DNA of 59,498 bases. It comes from Verrucomicrobiales bacterium. GTDB lineage: Bacteria > Verrucomicrobiota > Verrucomicrobiia > Verrucomicrobiales > DEV007. The stretch is from contig PAAG01000002.1 of the NCBI GenBank assembly GCA_002698785.1, positions 86,601-146,098 on the forward strand, read 5' to 3'. How positions within the stretch are numbered: the first letter of the stretch is position 1; each line of letters starts with the position of its first letter. Below are positions 25,481-36,344 of this stretch, in pieces. The translations under genes were made by a program, and so were the position numbers. The notes under the pieces were generated by a model. The model did not search any database. It saw nothing but the letters and a program-made list of their open reading frames with translations, and was not told where the DNA came from.

Positions 25481-27994
25481 ATGAAGGTACGCTGGCAACA
25501 TCTCGCTCTCTCTTTCTCCCTTCTATCCGGACATCTCTTCGCACAAGAGGTGTCCATGTCATCGTCTGCTTCGCAGGAACAACTCGACTTCTTTGAGAAG
25601 AAAATCCGTCCGGCTCTCGTCAAACATTGCTACAAATGTCACGCGGAAGAAGGTGATAAAATCAAAGGTGGCCTTCTTCTCGACACACGCGAAGCGACAA
25701 GAGTTGGTGGCGACTCAGGCAAAGCCATCGTCCCTCACGATCTGGACGAGAGCTTGCTATATGTCGCGATCACCTACGAGGACAGCAGCCTCGAAATGCC
25801 TCCGAAGTATAAGCTCGACGACGACGTCATAGCCGACTTCAAGACATGGATCGAAATGGGCGCACCCGATCCTCGCGAAAGACGTTTAGAGCCCGGCACC
25901 CCTACCGAATACACAAACACAATCGACATTGAAGCAGGACGGGAACACTGGGCCTACCAGCAGGCCATGAAGCCAAACTTGCCCGAAGTCGCTGATGAGA
26001 AATGGAACAAAAACCCAATCGATCGATTCGTATCAGCAAAGAGAAATGATGAAGGTCTCTCTGCAAACGGCGAAGCTGATCCACGCACACTGATTCGACG
26101 CCTCTCATTCGACCTTACCGGCCTTCCCCCATCCTCATCCGATGTGGAACAGTTTGTCGCCGACTTCGACGAAAACCCTGACACAGCCATATCAGAAGCA
26201 ACATCCCGCATGCTCGAAAGTGAGCAGTATGGAGAAAGGTGGGGGCGCCACTGGCTCGATGTGGCACGCTATGGTGAGTCATCCGGGAAAGAAATTAACG
26301 CTGCCTTTCCTCACGCCTGGCGCTATCGGGATTACGTAATCGATTCATTCAACCAAGACAAGCCCTTCGATCAGTTCATCACCGAGCAGATCGCCGGAGA
26401 TCTCCTCGACGCCGAAAACGATCAAAAGCGAACCGAACAACTCGTAGCAACTGGCTTCCTGGCCATCGGAACCAAGGGGTTGAATGAACAGAACGCCCGC
26501 CAATACCGATTCGACCTCGTCGATGAACAAATCGACACAACCACACAGGCTCTGCTAGGCACCACTGTCTCCTGCGCACGATGTCACGATCACAAATTCG
26601 ATCCCGTCCCAATGGCGGACTACTACGCCATGGCCGGAATTTTCCTGAGCAGCGAAACTCTTTATGGAACAACAGAAGCGCTGCAGAACCGCCGCACTAC
26701 CGAACTGATCAGCCTTCCTGACTCTGCACCGGTTGCCGCAGAAGGAAAATCTCTAGCGGACATGATCGATCTTGAAATGCAGCGAGACATCCTGCAAGAA
26801 CGCCTCGACGATCTGCTCGATGAGTCAAGGGAGGCACGCCGCTCCGGCGATGGAGACGAAGCAACGCGCATTCGCCAGCAAACCCTCGGAGTGAGAAACA
26901 GACTCGGTCAGGCCGAAGGAACGCTGAAAGCATTCCTGGATGACGGAACACCTATCGCCCTTGCCATGGGGGTTAGGGATAAAGAAGATCCCTTCGACTC
27001 CCAGATCCTCATTCGCGGCGAAGAAGACAACCCGACAGACGAACGCGTTCCTCGCGGTTTTATTCAGGTCATCAAGACAAACGATGAGGAGCCCATTGAA
27101 GCCGACCAAAGCGGAAGACTACAGCTCGCCCACTGGATCACCTCTCCTGAGAACCCACTCACTGCCAGAGTCTTTGTAAACCGTGTCTGGTCGAAGCTCT
27201 TTGGTGAAGGACTCGTCTCTACTCCGGACAACTTCGGCACAACAGGCGAGCTGCCTAGCCACCCCGACCTCCTGGATTATCTCGCCATTCGCTTCGTCGA
27301 ACTGGACTGGTCCGTGAAAGACCTCATCGAGGAAATAGTAACCTCACAAACCTACCGTATGAGCTCGGATTTCAATCCAGAGTATTTTGAAATGGATCCC
27401 GAGAATCGATATCTCTGGAGATTTCCTAAACGGCGCCTAGACGCCGAATCGATTCGCGATGCGACCCTCGCAGTCAGCGGTCAACTGGATGCATCTCGTC
27501 CCAAAGGCTCGGTAATCGGACAGATCGGTGATGGATACTTTGGCCGAACCATCACAGACGCCCAGATCGAAGTTCCCAGCAATCATCGCTCCGTCTATCT
27601 CCCTATCGTAAGAGGGCTCGTTCCAGAGTCATTGGCTGTATTCGACTTCGCAGATCCCAGCCTAATCTCCGGCAAAAGGGAGATCACAACAGTTCCCTCA
27701 CAAGCACTCTACATGATGAACTCCGAGTTCGTCATTGAGAGCGCAGATGCCATGGCCCGCCACCTGACAGAAGATCGAGGCCTCCGCGGTCCCGAACTCG
27801 CAAAAGAAGCATTCTACCTCTGCTATTCACGCCCGCCGACCAGTGAAGAGGGACAGAGAACCAAAGAGTATATCGAACGCTTCCTCGCCACCGCCGACGA
27901 ATCCGGTCTATCGCAGGACGAAGCTCGCCTCCTAGCCCTGACCACCTTTTGCCAATCACTGATTTCCAGCGCCGAATTTCGCTACCTGAACTGA
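25481..27994 (+). CDS. Secreted cytochrome-c/DUF1549/DUF1553 (PSD1-type) protein
   Basis: An 837-residue exported protein of the planctomycete-type cytochrome c family. A signal peptide (residues 1-22) is followed by a haem-binding CYKCH (50-54) in the PSCyt1-like domain. DUF1549 comes next (LIRRLSFDLTGLPPSSSDVEQFVADF ... YGERWGRHWLDVARYGES) with a second CARCH (365-369, in CARCHDHKFDPVP), then a coiled-coil-like region (about 425-490) and the C-terminal DUF1553 (LAHWITSPENPLTARVFVNRVWSKLFGEGLV). The biochemical role of these secreted haem proteins is not established; they occur with DUF1501 partners, as here 27 bp downstream. The start is ATG 25481. Confidence 0.92.
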   Translation: MKVRWQHLALSFSLLSGHLFAQEVSMSSSASQEQLDFFEKKIRPALVKHCYKCHAEEGDKIKGGLLLDTREATRVGGDSGKAIVPHDLDESLLYVAITYEDSSLEMPPKYKLDDDVIADFKTWIEMGAPDPRERRLEPGTPTEYTNTIDIEAGREHWAYQQAMKPNLPEVADEKWNKNPIDRFVSAKRNDEGLSANGEADPRTLIRRLSFDLTGLPPSSSDVEQFVADFDENPDTAISEATSRMLESEQYGERWGRHWLDVARYGESSGKEINAAFPHAWRYRDYVIDSFNQDKPFDQFITEQIAGDLLDAENDQKRTEQLVATGFLAIGTKGLNEQNARQYRFDLVDEQIDTTTQALLGTTVSCARCHDHKFDPVPMADYYAMAGIFLSSETLYGTTEALQNRRTTELISLPDSAPVAAEGKSLADMIDLEMQRDILQERLDDLLDESREARRSGDGDEATRIRQQTLGVRNRLGQAEGTLKAFLDDGTPIALAMGVRDKEDPFDSQILIRGEEDNPTDERVPRGFIQVIKTNDEEPIEADQSGRLQLAHWITSPENPLTARVFVNRVWSKLFGEGLVSTPDNFGTTGELPSHPDLLDYLAIRFVELDWSVKDLIEEIVTSQTYRMSSDFNPEYFEMDPENRYLWRFPKRRLDAESIRDATLAVSGQLDASRPKGSVIGQIGDGYFGRTITDAQIEVPSNHRSVYLPIVRGLVPESLAVFDFADPSLISGKREITTVPSQALYMMNSEFVIESADAMARHLTEDRGLRGPELAKEAFYLCYSRPPTSEEGQRTKEYIERFLATADESGLSQDEARLLALTTFCQSLISSAEFRYLN

Positions 27995-28021
27995 AACTCA
28001 TCTTTCAAACCCAATCCCGTC

Positions 28022-29401
28022 ATGTCTCCCTACAGCCCATTTACTCTTAATCGACGTCAGGTCCTGAAGACCACCTCTTCGGGATTTGGTTTCCTCGCCT
28101 TCTCTGCCCTGTCGAGTCTCGCAGCCCAGAAATCCCAAAACCCATTGGCACCGAAACAGCCTCATTTCCCTGCCCGAGCAAAGCGAGTGATCTTTCTCGC
28201 CATGCAGGGTGCCCCTTCTCACGTCGATACCTTTGATTACAAACCCGACCTGTCCCGTGACAGTGGAAAGGCGACAAAGGGCTTCGCAAAACTACTCGGT
28301 TCGCCTTTTGAGTTCAAACAACACGGCGAGAGCGGACTCTATATTTCCGAACTCTTCCCTCACCTCGCCGCTCAAGCAGACGACCTGTGTCTTGTGAACA
28401 GCATGCACACAGACGTGCCAAACCACCCCCAGGCAACCACCCAGATGAACACGGGCAACTTTCAGTTTGTTCGTCCATCGATGGGAGCGTGGACACTCTA
28501 CGGACTCGGCACCGAAAACGACAGCTTGCCAGGCTACATCACCCTTTCCCCTCCTAACGGAGCACAAAACTACGGGAGTGCATTCCTTCCCGCTATTTAT
28601 CAGGGAACACCGATCGGCAAACAGGCACGCAATCGCTTCATCGCCGAAGAAGATCAGGGAGCAGTCAGCAACATTGCGAACCCAAGGTTGAACTCCGACC
28701 TCCAGCGAGTGCAGCTCGACTACATAAAATCGCTCAACGCAGAAAAGCTGAAGCGCGACCAGTATCATCCCGACGTCGAAGGCATCATTGAGTCTTACGA
28801 GCTCGCCTTCCGGATGCAGGATGAATTGCCTGACGTGCTGGACATCTCAAGCGAGCCCGAATCCATTCGCAAACTCTACGGCATTGACGATCGCACAACA
28901 GGAGCCTTCGCAAAGCAGTGCCTCAGTGCGCGTCGCCTTGCTGAAGCTGGAGTCCGATTTATCCAGCTCAATCACGGAAACTGGGATCACCACCGGAATC
29001 TGAAGGACGGCCTCACCAACAACTGCGCCGAGATCGACAAGCCAATTGCCGCGCTCCTCCAGGATCTCAAGCAAAGAGACATGCTCAAAGACACCCTTGT
29101 CATCTGGTCCGGCGAATTTGGCCGCACTCCTCATGGCCAGAATAACAATGGTCGCGATCACAACAATCGGGGCTACAGCCTCTGGATGGCCGGCGGCGGA
29201 GTCAAAGGCGGTCTTCGCTATGGAGCCACCGACGAATACGGATACCAAGCTGTTGAGGACAAAGTCCACATCCACGACTGGCACGCCACGGTTCTTCACC
29301 TCCTCGGTTTGAACCACACCGACCTGACCTATCGTTACGCTGGAAGAGATTTCCGCCTCACCGACGTTCATGGCCATGTCGTGGATGGAATTCTTTCTTA
29401 A
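28022..29401 (+). CDS. DUF1501 protein with Tat-like signal
   Basis: A 459-residue DUF1501 (alkaline-phosphatase-superfamily-like) protein, the usual partner of DUF1549/DUF1553 genes. The N-terminus has NRRQVLKTTSSGFGFLAFS, a twin-arginine-like signal. Family landmarks are KRVIFLAMQGAPSHVDTFDYKP, FPHLAAQADDLCLVNSMHTD, RRLAEAGVRFIQLNHGNWDHH, VIWSGEFGRTPHGQNN, and the end IHDWHATVLHLLGL ... GRDFRLTDVHGHVV. Enzymatic activity is inferred from the superfamily only. It is the second gene of the pair. Confidence 0.93.
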   Translation: MSPYSPFTLNRRQVLKTTSSGFGFLAFSALSSLAAQKSQNPLAPKQPHFPARAKRVIFLAMQGAPSHVDTFDYKPDLSRDSGKATKGFAKLLGSPFEFKQHGESGLYISELFPHLAAQADDLCLVNSMHTDVPNHPQATTQMNTGNFQFVRPSMGAWTLYGLGTENDSLPGYITLSPPNGAQNYGSAFLPAIYQGTPIGKQARNRFIAEEDQGAVSNIANPRLNSDLQRVQLDYIKSLNAEKLKRDQYHPDVEGIIESYELAFRMQDELPDVLDISSEPESIRKLYGIDDRTTGAFAKQCLSARRLAEAGVRFIQLNHGNWDHHRNLKDGLTNNCAEIDKPIAALLQDLKQRDMLKDTLVIWSGEFGRTPHGQNNNGRDHNNRGYSLWMAGGGVKGGLRYGATDEYGYQAVEDKVHIHDWHATVLHLLGLNHTDLTYRYAGRDFRLTDVHGHVVDGILS

Positions 29402-33238: not shown

Positions 33239-35311
33239 ATGAAACGGTCAAGACAGACGTTCCTTAGCACCGACTCCACTTTCCCTTCTTCAGAAACGGG
33301 AGAGATGGGGGAAGCGGGAAAGGAAACTATCGCAGATTTTGCCAACAGAGTGCTCTTCGGATCGACTCTGGAGGAAAAGCTGCGCCGCCCGTCCCTATTG
33401 TCCCTCACTTCGAGTCCTTCCGGGCTCGATAAAGGCATCCTCCATGCAGATCTCGTCCCGGGTCGCCCCGAGGGACTTACCTTTGCGCGGAGCGGAGCGA
33501 AGCGACCAAACATGCCCAGCCGTCCCGACCTTGTTGATGAGAAAAGCAGAGGTGTTCTTCTTCACTTCTTCGCAAACCACGAACTTCTGGCCGCGGAATT
33601 AATGGCTCTCGCATTGCTGAAATTTCCGGACGCTCCCGAGGAATTTCGCAAAGGTCTCATTCAGACGCTGAAAGAAGAACAATATCATACAAAATGGTAT
33701 GTTCGCCGAATGGCTGAATGTGGAGTGGAATTCGGCGAGTATCCTCTGAATCGCTTTTTCTGGGACGCCGTCTCCAGTATGGAGAGCCCACTTGACTACG
33801 TTTCTCGACTCAGTCTGACCTTTGAGCAGGCAAATCTGGATTACGCCCTGCACTATTCGGGACTACTTGAAGAGGCTGGCGACTCGAAAAGTTCTGCCAT
33901 ACTCAAACAAATTTACCAGGATGAAATCTCTCATGTTGGTTATGGACTGACCTGGTTTCGAAACTGGAAGAATAAGCAGACAGATGATTGGGCCGCGCTG
34001 AAATCCCAGTTACATTTCCCGCTTTCACCGAGCCGGGCCAAGGGTAACAAGACTCCCTTCAATCGGGAAGGAAGAATCGCCGCAGGTTTCGACGAATCTT
34101 ACGTCGATCAGTTGGAAATATTTGATCGTTCCAATGGCCGCACACCGAATGTTTTCTATTTCAATCCCGATGCGGAAAATCAAATCGGAGCGCTCCCTTC
34201 TCCCTATCATCCCAACGTAAAGATTCGCAGTGTAATTGAAGATTTGGAGATCCTTTCTGCATTCACCGCGAGGAGAGACGATGTTCTCCTGATGCGTCGG
34301 CCTCCCTCGGCGCCACACCGCAGGAAGCTCTTACAAGCAGGTTTCATATTGCCGGAGATCGAAGCAATTGAGGGCGACTGTCTCGGTCCAAGCAATCTCA
34401 TCCTGAACAGAAAGCTGCATGCTTTTCGTCCCTGGAGTCTCGCCCCGAACTTGCCCAAGCAGTTCAATCGTCTCGAATTGTCTGATTCGGTCACCCTCTG
34501 GAAACCCGAGTATGCTCCCCTGTTCTCTAAAGCGGAACAGGCGAAACACCTCGCCAAATGGATGGGTCCATCCTTTGTCTGTGAATCGGATGACAAACTC
34601 CCTGCCATACTCTCAGAAATTAGGGCCCAGGGGTGGAACAAAGCGGTCTTGAAGAAGCCATTCTCGACCGCAGGAAACGGAATGCAGTTTATCAATCTCG
34701 ATCGCATGGAATCTTGCCCTTCCAGAGCAGAGAACATGGTGGTCGAACCCTTTCATGACCGGGTATTCGACTTTTCCGTTCAGTTCGATGTAGGAAAAGA
34801 ACGCATCCGGAAACTGGGTATAGTCCATCAACTCGTCCAGGATAGCGGAGCCTATCGGGGCAGCCGTTGCTTTATCAAAACCTGCGAGGGCCTTTCACCG
34901 GAGCTTTCCCGATTCCTCATGGAGCATGCCCTTCCTCAGTATGAAAGCGACTCACCTTTCATCACGGCAGTTTTTGATTGGCTGAGATCCGTAGGATACC
35001 GCGGCCCTATGGGTATTGACGCATATGTCTTCCGCGAACCTTCCGGAAATCTTGGTCTGCGGCCAGCCTGCGAGATCAACCCTCGCTACACGATGGGCCG
35101 AGTGGCTCTGGAACTTCGAAAGCAGATCGCGTCGGGATATGGATTGGAATTCCGGATACTTCGGGCATCTGACCCTGAAGCGAATTCCGATGCTGCTATT
35201 ATCGATTCCAAAGGAAAAATGAGCGGAGGTTCTCTCATTTTGAATGATCTCCATTCGGACTCTCGTTTCGCCGCAAAGATCAAGGTTGCCAAAAAGGCTG
35301 CTGATCTTTAG
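33239..35311 (+). CDS. DUF455 ferritin-like domain fused to ATP-grasp domain
   Basis: A 690-residue two-domain protein. The N-terminal part (about 95-260) is a DUF455-type ferritin-like helical bundle with candidate di-metal ligands: E115 and E120 (FFANHELLAAEL), E147/H150 (KEEQYHTKW), E196 (LTFEQANLDYALHY) and E229/H232 (YQDEISHVGYGL). The C-terminal part (about 330-640) is ATP-grasp: the nucleotide-binding lysine pair is in VLKKPFSTAGNGMQF (470-484), and the Mg2+ ligands are E612 and N614 in ACEINPRYTMG. The join suggests a metal-dependent oxidation or hydroxylation tied to an ATP-dependent ligation. TTG 33218 is also possible, but ATG 33239 is preferred. It is divergent from the LptF/G-like gene. 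Confidence 0.82.
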   Translation: MKRSRQTFLSTDSTFPSSETGEMGEAGKETIADFANRVLFGSTLEEKLRRPSLLSLTSSPSGLDKGILHADLVPGRPEGLTFARSGAKRPNMPSRPDLVDEKSRGVLLHFFANHELLAAELMALALLKFPDAPEEFRKGLIQTLKEEQYHTKWYVRRMAECGVEFGEYPLNRFFWDAVSSMESPLDYVSRLSLTFEQANLDYALHYSGLLEEAGDSKSSAILKQIYQDEISHVGYGLTWFRNWKNKQTDDWAALKSQLHFPLSPSRAKGNKTPFNREGRIAAGFDESYVDQLEIFDRSNGRTPNVFYFNPDAENQIGALPSPYHPNVKIRSVIEDLEILSAFTARRDDVLLMRRPPSAPHRRKLLQAGFILPEIEAIEGDCLGPSNLILNRKLHAFRPWSLAPNLPKQFNRLELSDSVTLWKPEYAPLFSKAEQAKHLAKWMGPSFVCESDDKLPAILSEIRAQGWNKAVLKKPFSTAGNGMQFINLDRMESCPSRAENMVVEPFHDRVFDFSVQFDVGKERIRKLGIVHQLVQDSGAYRGSRCFIKTCEGLSPELSRFLMEHALPQYESDSPFITAVFDWLRSVGYRGPMGIDAYVFREPSGNLGLRPACEINPRYTMGRVALELRKQIASGYGLEFRILRASDPEANSDAAIIDSKGKMSGGSLILNDLHSDSRFAAKIKVAKKAADL

Positions 35312-35333: not shown

Positions 35334-36344
35334 ATGCCTTCTTCTTGTTCAGTCTGGCGTATTGCGGCAATAGTCGGGTGTGTTTTCCTGAAAAGCACGG
35401 GAAGCCTATCTGCACAGGAGCTGTCGGAGTCAGTTTTGACTAAGGTGCGTAGCGCCACGGTAGAGGTTCACTTTCATGGGCAGTTACGTGGAGGCGGAGT
35501 TTTCGTAAAGTCCTCGGATGGCAAAGAGTTCGTGCTGACGGCGGCACATCTCTTTCCGAGCCCAAAAGACACGTGCACGGTAGTCGCATCCGACGACGAG
35601 GTGCTGTTCGCGACACTTACGGCATACGACCTCGGCCATGACTTGGCTTTGCTAGAAGTTGGACCGGAGGCCTCAAAGTATGGCGCGCTGAAGATAGCTT
35701 CAAAAACACCTCAAGAAACAGAACCAATCTTCAATTTCGGCCCGGCCTTACGTAGACGAACTCTTGTTCTATCTGGAAATGTTGCGGACTCCAGGACGTG
35801 TTACACAGACTTCTCGGCCTCTGAAGGTTATATCGAACACTACTTCGCAGGTGGTATTAATCCGGTCCTGACGTCTGGTGGAACATGGGTGAACAGGAAA
35901 GGTGAAATCGTCGGTGTTCAACACGGGCGTCTCATCGGCGATGAAGGAGCCCCTTCATCAGGACTCAGCATGGTTTCGCCACCGGCAGCAATTTCAAATT
36001 TAATTGAGAAACGAGCCGTTGCGTCCACCCCGAGTATTGGTGGATACGTCTGGGAGGTCTGGACCGCAGACCGACAGCTCCTGAGCAGGCTGCCAAAAGG
36101 AATTCACGGGGTGGTTGCGAGTCCAATCTTCAAAGGACGCCCGCTGGACAAGGCCGGGATCAAGAATTCCGATGTGATTGTGAGTTGCGATGGTTCAAAG
36201 ATTCGCAGGCGGCACGAGTTGCTCGAAGCGATACGTTCGAAGCCTCCCGGCACCACGTTCACCTTGGAGGTGATTTCACCGGGGTCTGGAAAACGGCGGA
36301 CAGTCTACCTGACAACCGACACGTTGGAAGCACTCTGGCAGTAA
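35334..36344 (+). CDS. Secreted S1C (trypsin-like) protease with C-terminal PDZ-like domain
   Basis: A 336-residue HtrA/DegP-like exported protein. The signal-anchor ends near residue 27 (LSAQ). Catalytic residues are H72 (LTAAHLF), D103 (GHDLALLE) and S181 (LTSGGTWVN, instead of the canonical GNSGGP). A PDZ-like domain occupies about 248-318 (GVVASPIFKGRPLDKAGIKNSDVIVSCDG). It starts 22 bp after the DUF455-ATP-grasp gene, so the two are probably cotranscribed. A 6-bp inverted repeat (GTTAAG/CTTAAC, 35315-35330) lies in the gap. The altered motif around the serine leaves activity uncertain. Confidence 0.82.
   Translation: MPSSCSVWRIAAIVGCVFLKSTGSLSAQELSESVLTKVRSATVEVHFHGQLRGGGVFVKSSDGKEFVLTAAHLFPSPKDTCTVVASDDEVLFATLTAYDLGHDLALLEVGPEASKYGALKIASKTPQETEPIFNFGPALRRRTLVLSGNVADSRTCYTDFSASEGYIEHYFAGGINPVLTSGGTWVNRKGEIVGVQHGRLIGDEGAPSSGLSMVSPPAAISNLIEKRAVASTPSIGGYVWEVWTADRQLLSRLPKGIHGVVASPIFKGRPLDKAGIKNSDVIVSCDGSKIRRRHELLEAIRSKPPGTTFTLEVISPGSGKRRTVYLTTDTLEALWQ

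Follow-up and report, generated by a model that had tools for sequence, protein, structure and literature searches.

We analysed a gene in a 59,498-nucleotide stretch of DNA from a Verrucomicrobiales bacterium (contig PAAG01000002.1 of assembly GCA_002698785.1; the whole stretch is called the window here) that joins, in one polypeptide of 690 residues, an N-terminal ferritin-like domain of the family DUF455 and a C-terminal ATP-grasp ligase module. The fusion combines domains of two known superfamilies in a new way; it is conserved, and both of its predicted sites are intact. We give even chances to the view that the encoded protein is a bifunctional enzyme, in which a di-metal oxygenase and a carboxylate-amine ligase that forms acyl phosphates would serve one short pathway, and a new enzyme type is possible. 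A preliminary description of the window had proposed both the fusion and a joint action of its halves; our analysis confirms what was observed there (one intact frame, a PF04305 match of 160.9 bits and a modelled ATP-grasp fold) and partly supports the interpretation.

The gene is a single open frame that starts with ATG and has zero internal stops, and the reverse-complement frame over it is interrupted by stops. Several homologues of the same genus have the start methionine in common (MKRS/MERS). The gene is single-copy, and a second DUF455 match was looked for in the window's genome and not found. An alignment-based scan of genome contigs, from which we took the best 80 loci of at least 349 relatives, revealed that the fusion is widespread, while a scan with the single protein had found no relatives. 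At 76 of these loci a single frame spans at least residues 40-620 of the query. Of the remaining four, three run into contig ends and the last is broken up into two frames. The groups among these 80 loci are Verrucomicrobiales, Opitutales/Puniceicoccaceae including Pelagicoccus, Rubritalea, Roseibacillus, Haloferula and Pedosphaera/subdivision 3, together with a Spartobacteria bin, one bin labelled Akkermansia muciniphila and one Kiritimatiellia bin.

We compared these loci with three sets of genomes, bearing in mind that the 80-locus, genus, relatives and phylum sets share genomes and that L100 and L103, at least, come from one bin. A match is present in 31 of the 33 genomes of the window's genus, its own included, mostly at full length and in some cases partial at contig ends. 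The whole relatives set gave a fusion-protein match in 41 of 56 genomes and the phylum sample in 24 of 288, 14 of which are fusions with E below 1e-80. Some DUF455 match occurs in 30 of the 288 genomes; it has E below 1e-40 in 14, all of them fusions (frames of 648-724 residues), and the weaker matches, with E 4.6e-14 or worse, lie in frames of 429-596 residues, plus one 216-residue frame in the fusion genome G278. The ligase profile matches 16 of the 288 genomes, and its 14 strong matches (E below 1e-60) are the same 14 genes as the strong DUF455 matches.

A few of the frames read in these scans deserve a separate record. The split locus (L083:9929-12029) carries residues 1-518 and 542-685 in different frames, through either an assembly error or a real loss. 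L030 has a 1131-residue frame whose extra N-terminal stretch, without a recognisable domain by eye, was read as an upstream open stretch, and at one locus the frame continues across a masked stretch into what appears to be another gene. Several genomes of family f9 hold frames of 429-596 residues that match DUF455 weakly, often two or more in a genome (L159:748-2064; similar in G314, G109 and G170), and by eye the L159 frame looks like two ferritin-like repeats.

Residue conservation was counted over an alignment of 74 rows (A2), some of which are near-identical pairs, and the rows are therefore not 74 independent cases. At the junction of the two domains, S298, G300, R301 and P303 are identical in all 74 rows. 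The distance matrices of the two halves, calculated for 74 proteins, correlate with r = 0.85 (the maximum of 999 permutations was 0.09), which speaks for inheritance as one unit and not for shared function. The N-terminal domain is better conserved than the ligase half, with a mean distance of 0.43 versus 0.64. The AlphaFold2 model of the full chain, built with 74 sequences, has a mean predicted local distance difference test score (pLDDT) of 91.6 and a predicted template modelling score (pTM) of 0.89. Since such a pTM is hard to reach for 690 residues without a consistent relative placement, the model suggests a fixed mutual arrangement of the DUF455 and ligase domains, which is also the one hint at a cavity common to both sites.

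The DUF455 match lies well above the Pfam cut-off (Table 1). The candidate metal residues named in the preliminary description, E115, E147/H150, E196 and E229/H232, are correctly numbered, and each is identical in 74 of 74 rows of A2; all six Glu/His ligands are also kept in four aligned stand-alone DUF455 proteins. Further invariant residues of the bundle are N113, H114, E120, Q148, Y154, Q197, N199, D201, D228 and W239. The predicted helical bundle thus carries the E...ExxH...E...ExxH ligand set by which ferritin-like diiron domains are recognised. Modelled alone, residues 28-297 gave a pLDDT of 91.8 and a pTM of 0.91, and the best structural match is an aldehyde-deformylating oxygenase (5k53, Z 15.5 over 190 residues), followed by the Dps-like PA4880 (Z 14.9), the toluene/o-xylene monooxygenase hydroxylase (14.1), bacterioferritins (13.9) and a putative MiaE-type hydroxylase (13.5). 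The structure matches are mainly ferritin-like folds, with a TenA homologue at Foldseek rank 45. Haem-oxygenase-like structures are not among the 50 best structural matches listed for the domain, an absence that excludes nothing. A search of the PDB with the profile of the domain (E up to 10) returned ribonucleotide-reductase beta subunits, bacterioferritin, R2-like oxidases, aldehyde decarbonylase and a designed bundle, with a best E of 0.003, and the complete 690-residue protein used as a single sequence had no PDB match up to E 1. Taken together, the N-terminal half is predicted to be a two-metal ferritin-like domain, putatively oxygen-using. DUF455 has been tied to known folds only via designed intermediate sequences, according to the portion of PMC4520260 that deals with it, and a function for DUF455, or for COG2833, was not found in the open-licence papers searched.

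For the C-terminal half, comparison of residues ~301-690 with the PDB by VIA-align gave 3wvq as the best match (Z 28.3, root-mean-square deviation 3.1, 350 residues, 15% identity), followed by the ATP-grasp peptide ligase 8ynd (Z 26.7), BesA (8yi6, 25.5) and SAOUHSC_02373 (7r8q, 23.9). The entries 3wvq and 3wvr, titled only 'ATP grasp protein', we take to be the pheganomycin peptide ligase PGM1, and SAOUHSC_02373 (7r8p, 7r8q) and LdmS presumably form one family. The seven best structural rows, at Z 22.6-28.3, are 3wvq/3wvr, 8ynd/8ynq, 8yi6 and 7r8q/7r8p, with PurD and PurK below them at 18-20. Foldseek found 264 PDB chains at E of 0.001 or less, and the 50 matches listed are, as far as we can assume from family knowledge, ATP-grasp enzymes. 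K431, K472, E503, D594, E612, N614 and R616 are each identical in 74 of 74 rows. Thus K472, E612 and N614, which the preliminary description had assigned to the binding of nucleotide and Mg2+, hold, K471 does not (position 471 holds Leu; K472 is the invariant lysine, with K473 after it), and K431, E503, D594 and R616 have to be added. From family knowledge we presume that K431 and K472 are the two basic ATP residues and that D594, E612 and N614 are the acidic and Asn ligands of Mg.

Sequence searches reach the same superfamily at low scores. Among 57 C-terminal domains of relatives searched against Pfam with E up to 1, PreAtp-grasp (PF18604) appears in 23 (best E 9e-7), DUF3182 in 11 (3e-5) and ATP-grasp_3 in 10 (0.0049); the window's own C-terminal domain matches none of these three, nor any other Pfam family, at E up to 1. 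In NCBIfam, residues 488-543 match LdmS (NF047900) weakly, with E 0.002 and 16.9 bits against an equivalog cut-off of 475, so that the protein is not a member; LdmS is the only ATP-grasp family met there at E below 0.01. Likewise, 7r8p is the only ATP-grasp chain met in the family-profile searches of the PDB (E 0.0033 and 0.01). By its predicted fold, the ligase half is nearest to the amino-acid and peptide ligases of the PGM1/BesA/LdmS type.

Each half also exists as a separate protein in other phyla. In a plasmid collection searched with tblastn, matches to DUF455 only end at or before residue 303 and matches to the ligase only start at or after residue 305; nine proteobacterial records fall within residues 72-303 and two Bacteroidales records within residues 305-629, and 0 of the 11 covers 80% of the protein. 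The stand-alone DUF455 proteins of Proteobacteria have about 275 residues and lack the ligase domain, and three of them align to the profile of the fused domain with an hhalign probability of 99.5 (E 9e-23). The ligase-only family of Bacteroidales aligns to the profile of the C-terminal domain over 381 columns (probability 100, E 7e-42) and shares with it the FNP, PW, DF and E-x-N-x-R..MG motifs. Three Bacteroidales ligases were aligned, two with the annotation 'hypothetical' and one with none; all begin where residue 302-303 lies in the fusion, and they keep the ATP/Mg residues except K431, which is Arg in them. The LdmS model matches one of these three at 8e-8 and another at 0.009 and has no match in the third, and a convincing Pfam match is absent in the two ligase-only proteins that were scanned. 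The family is apparently one of dipeptide-type ligases, as judged from sequence. The Bacteroidales genera that carry it are anaerobes.

The preliminary description had also suggested a search for the two parts as separate neighbouring genes. Lone genes for both halves were indeed found, in different phyla, but they are not neighbours of each other: as far as product names in incomplete gene tables allow, no gene named ATP-grasp lies within 6 kb of the four stand-alone DUF455 plasmid loci, and no gene named ferritin-like occurs at the three annotated Bacteroidales ligase loci, two more records being devoid of annotation at this place. The four DUF455 loci adjoin a peroxiredoxin gene in two cases, CysQ in one and transposases in one.

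These records contain several further observations. The Bacteroidales ligase-only genes are located at L142:7992-9200, L143:7986-9101, L145:7995-9254 and L192:7986-9191 and encode 371-419 residues, 'hypothetical' or unannotated. Two alphaproteobacterial DUF455 genes directly follow the peroxiredoxin gene (L136:5408-6684 and L137:5366-6678), a possible lead to peroxide or oxygen chemistry, and on a conjugative Geobacillus plasmid (L139:3187-6973) the DUF455 gene sits between an IS66-type transposase gene and another transposase gene, possibly as a mobile copy. A Streptomyces plasmid protein (L144:7941-9137) matches the ligase half with E 6e-6 and the PreAtp-grasp model with 8e-4; around its gene are radical SAM, acyl carrier, condensation-domain and oxidoreductase genes, a setting that resembles a biosynthetic cluster.

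We assessed the link to oxygen respiration in the phylum sample. The haem-copper oxidase COX1 is present in 14 of the 14 fusion genomes, against 103 of 288 phylum genomes overall (Fisher, 3e-7 by genome and 4e-4 by genus for 9 genera, uncorrected for shared ancestry). In genus g4, 20 genomes are listed without COX1, and these also lack the fusion. The presence of the ligase alone in anaerobic Bacteroidales suggests that ligation is an independent step, to which oxidation was added in oxygen-respiring lineages.

In the window the fusion gene has a divergent LptF/LptG gene on one side and a Trypsin_2/PDZ gene on the other; further out lie genes for an AmiA-like amidase, a polyphosphate kinase, a PAP2 phosphatase and a TIM-barrel protein. 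Across 81 neighbourhoods (the 80 loci plus the window's own), neighbours of the LptF/G permease, AmiA-like, trypsin/PDZ and polyphosphate kinase types come up 16-21 times. In the adjacency table the fusion gene is placed at 74 of the 80 loci as well as in the window, simple gene picking having missed six loci. A conserved operon partner was considered and rejected: the recurring neighbours reflect synteny of the window's genus, as judged by similarity, and elsewhere the neighbours vary (21 neighbourhoods read by eye). An upstream gene that appears CBM9-like by eye recurs in 7 neighbourhoods and does not generalise.

Table 1 Features of the fusion gene and its downstream neighbour in the window.
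Feature	Position	Strand	Basis
Fusion gene, N-terminal DUF455 ferritin-like and C-terminal pre-ATP-grasp/ATP-grasp, 690 residues	33239..35311	+	Single open frame; full-length model
DUF455 domain (PF04305), residues 72-289	33452..34105	+	hmmscan E=5.2e-47, 160.9 bits, cut-off 34.3
Candidate di-metal site E115, E147, H150, E196, E229, H232	33581..33934 (span of six codons)	+	Residue conservation
Junction, residues 298-303	34130..34147	+	S298, G300, R301, P303 invariant
Pre-ATP-grasp and ATP-grasp module, residues 303-690	34145..35308	+	VIA-align against PDB
ATP/Mg residues K431, K472, E503, D594, E612, N614, R616	34529..35086 (codon span)	+	Conservation; roles presumed from family knowledge
Downstream neighbour, Trypsin_2 and PDZ protein	35334..36344	+	Pfam (scanned from 35331); start codon assumed, longest frame from 35244

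Elsewhere in the window, positions 25481-29401 encode an 837-residue protein that by eye resembles planctomycete-type cytochrome-containing proteins and adjoins a DUF1501 protein. The window's genome also encodes a second, distant ATP-grasp-like protein of 473 residues (L141:1198-2619; G000:C2:143300-143830), directly upstream of a gene that looks M20-type peptidase-like by eye, possibly as a ligase and hydrolase pair.

From the computed fusion protein, with both its folds and residue sets, we infer the identity of the metals, the use of O2, the chemistry of the ligase and the common pathway as follows. The ferritin-like domain would bind two metal ions, probably Fe/Fe and possibly Mn/Fe, through E115, E147/H150, E196 and E229/H232, and the di-metal centre would use O2 to oxidise a small molecule. 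The ATP-grasp domain would activate a carboxylate, probably from an amino acid or short peptide, by turning it into an acyl phosphate, and would then couple it to an amine. The oxidation may install or unmask a group on the substrate or the product of the ligation, and both steps would most likely belong to one short pathway. Oxygenase-like and ligase modules in one chain, which occur as separate proteins in other bacteria, therefore probably make a two-step enzyme. A more specific version, which we offer tentatively and with clearly less than even chances, is a one-gene 'oxidise and ligate' enzyme of oxygen-respiring Verrucomicrobiota: the DUF455 diiron centre would modify an amino acid or peptide that the tethered ligase holds or hands over, an amide-linked small molecule would be made without a gene cluster, and the enzyme would have arisen when an oxygenase was joined to a ligase still found on its own in Bacteroidales.

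Several results weigh against the bifunctional enzyme. Foldseek found no match of the N-terminal domain in the PDB at E of 0.001 or less (best 0.038), and at Z 13-15 helical bundles can match through arrangement alone; the assignment of the fold therefore rests on the bundle and the six invariant ligands together. The window's own protein has no Pfam ATP-grasp match up to E 1, and its filing in the ATP-grasp superfamily rests on fold and residues. The fusion is absent from many COX1-bearing genomes, and aerobic respiration is therefore at most a condition for it. The ligase half occurs without DUF455 in Bacteroidales, so that ligation need not depend on oxidation. Finally, no reductase, peptide or pathway gene recurs beside the fusion beyond the window's genus in the 81 neighbourhoods; the want of a cluster conserved beyond the genus suggests a common metabolite as substrate and a protein that works without a dedicated partner.

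The main rival explanation, which we regard as unlikely, holds that the ferritin-like domain is a sensor or guard that binds iron or reacts with O2 or peroxide and thereby modulates or shields a ligase that makes the product by itself. This would agree with the stand-alone ligases of Bacteroidales, with the peroxiredoxin genes beside stand-alone DUF455 genes in two of four plasmid neighbourhoods and with the haem-copper oxidase in all 14 fusion genomes of the sample. On the other hand, the full set of six ligands and the many other invariant residues of the bundle resemble an enzyme pocket, and conservation is higher in the bundle than in the ligase it would serve. Less likely still, in our judgement, is a chain of two enzymes with separate substrates, held together for dosage or localisation and sharing no pathway. 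That each half exists alone elsewhere, and that no operon context tying the halves to one pathway was found, would suit such an arrangement, but in the phylum sample the 14 strong DUF455 and 14 strong ligase matches are the same genes, and the junction segment is invariant.

Lower again in our estimation stands a ligase half that makes something other than an amino-acid amide, for instance a carboxyphosphate-type or ester product, the fold being common to purine, biotin-carboxylase and kinase-type enzymes. PurD, PurK, PurT and biotin carboxylase do match structurally, at Z 16-20; however, the best rows, above PurD and PurK, include entries titled peptide ligase (8ynd/8ynq) and BesA (8yi6), and by sequence LdmS was the only ATP-grasp family reached in NCBIfam at E below 0.01 and 7r8p the only ATP-grasp chain reached in the PDB by the family profiles. 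As for an artefact, the one split frame among the 80 loci indicates that frames can be faulty or broken; in that case the change runs the other way, from one frame to two. Against a sequencing or assembly frameshift that joined two neighbouring genes speak the single frame in 76 of 80 loci, the matches in 31 of 33 genus genomes and the invariant junction residues, so that we rejected it and regard its probability as negligible. The three findings that the preliminary description had named as fatal to its proposal were looked for, and what we see is an unbroken metal set, an ATP-grasp half with its residues and fold kept, and a frameshift join excluded by the one-frame loci.

The comparison with known systems places the bifunctional enzyme among related chemistry. 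BesA (8yi6) and the 8ynd/8ynq peptide ligases of Streptomyces have the same fold as the ligase half. BesA reportedly works in beta-ethynylserine synthesis beside the diiron oxidase BesC, and the Bes oxidase is said to be a separate protein of haem-oxygenase-like fold. LdmS, an L-aspartate--L-methionine ligase, is matched weakly and the fusion stays outside the equivalog. We know of no ferritin-like domain in PGM1. The Bacteroidales ligase-only family (e.g. WP_122246558 of Parabacteroides distasonis) is homologous over the whole module and has no DUF455, whereas the stand-alone proteobacterial DUF455 proteins have the six ligands in common with the fusion and no ligase domain. The cyanobacterial aldehyde-deformylating oxygenase is the best match to the bundle and the following helices at 12% identity, and the fusion is likened to it by predicted fold alone. 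PGM1 shares its pre-ATP-grasp domain type with 23 of the 57 relatives; it differs in sequence and belongs to an antibiotic cluster, as stated in a part of PMC8939145, whereas the fusion gene has no cluster conserved beyond its genus.

The pairing of a diiron oxidase with ATP-grasp chemistry has precedent, as passages of PMC13185094 and PMC2922099 describe it. The former report haem-oxygenase-like diiron oxidases (HDOs) near ATP-grasp ligases, with 1447 sequences and at least 25 unique clusters, and, for mangotoxin, the HDO MboA with the ATP-grasp amino-acid ligases MboC/MboD; the latter concern predicted operons with haem-oxygenase-like oxygenases and ATP-grasp peptide ligases. The HDO clusters of PMC13185094, as far as those passages go, show the same pairing as the fusion, but with a haem-oxygenase-like fold instead of DUF455 and on separate polypeptides. 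DUF455 and ATP-grasp in one chain, or any ferritin-like/ATP-grasp fusion, was not found in the open-licence literature searched.

If true, the one-gene oxidise-and-ligate reading would give DUF455 a first function. Should the two halves work on the same molecule, one gene would accomplish what takes several in the known oxidase-ligase clusters. As a genomic hint to a pathway the conserved fusion is strong. It leads us to expect a coupling of DUF455 chemistry to carboxylate-amine ligation, and the substrates of the two stand-alone counterparts, one from Bacteroidales and one from Proteobacteria, ought to bracket the reaction of the fused protein.

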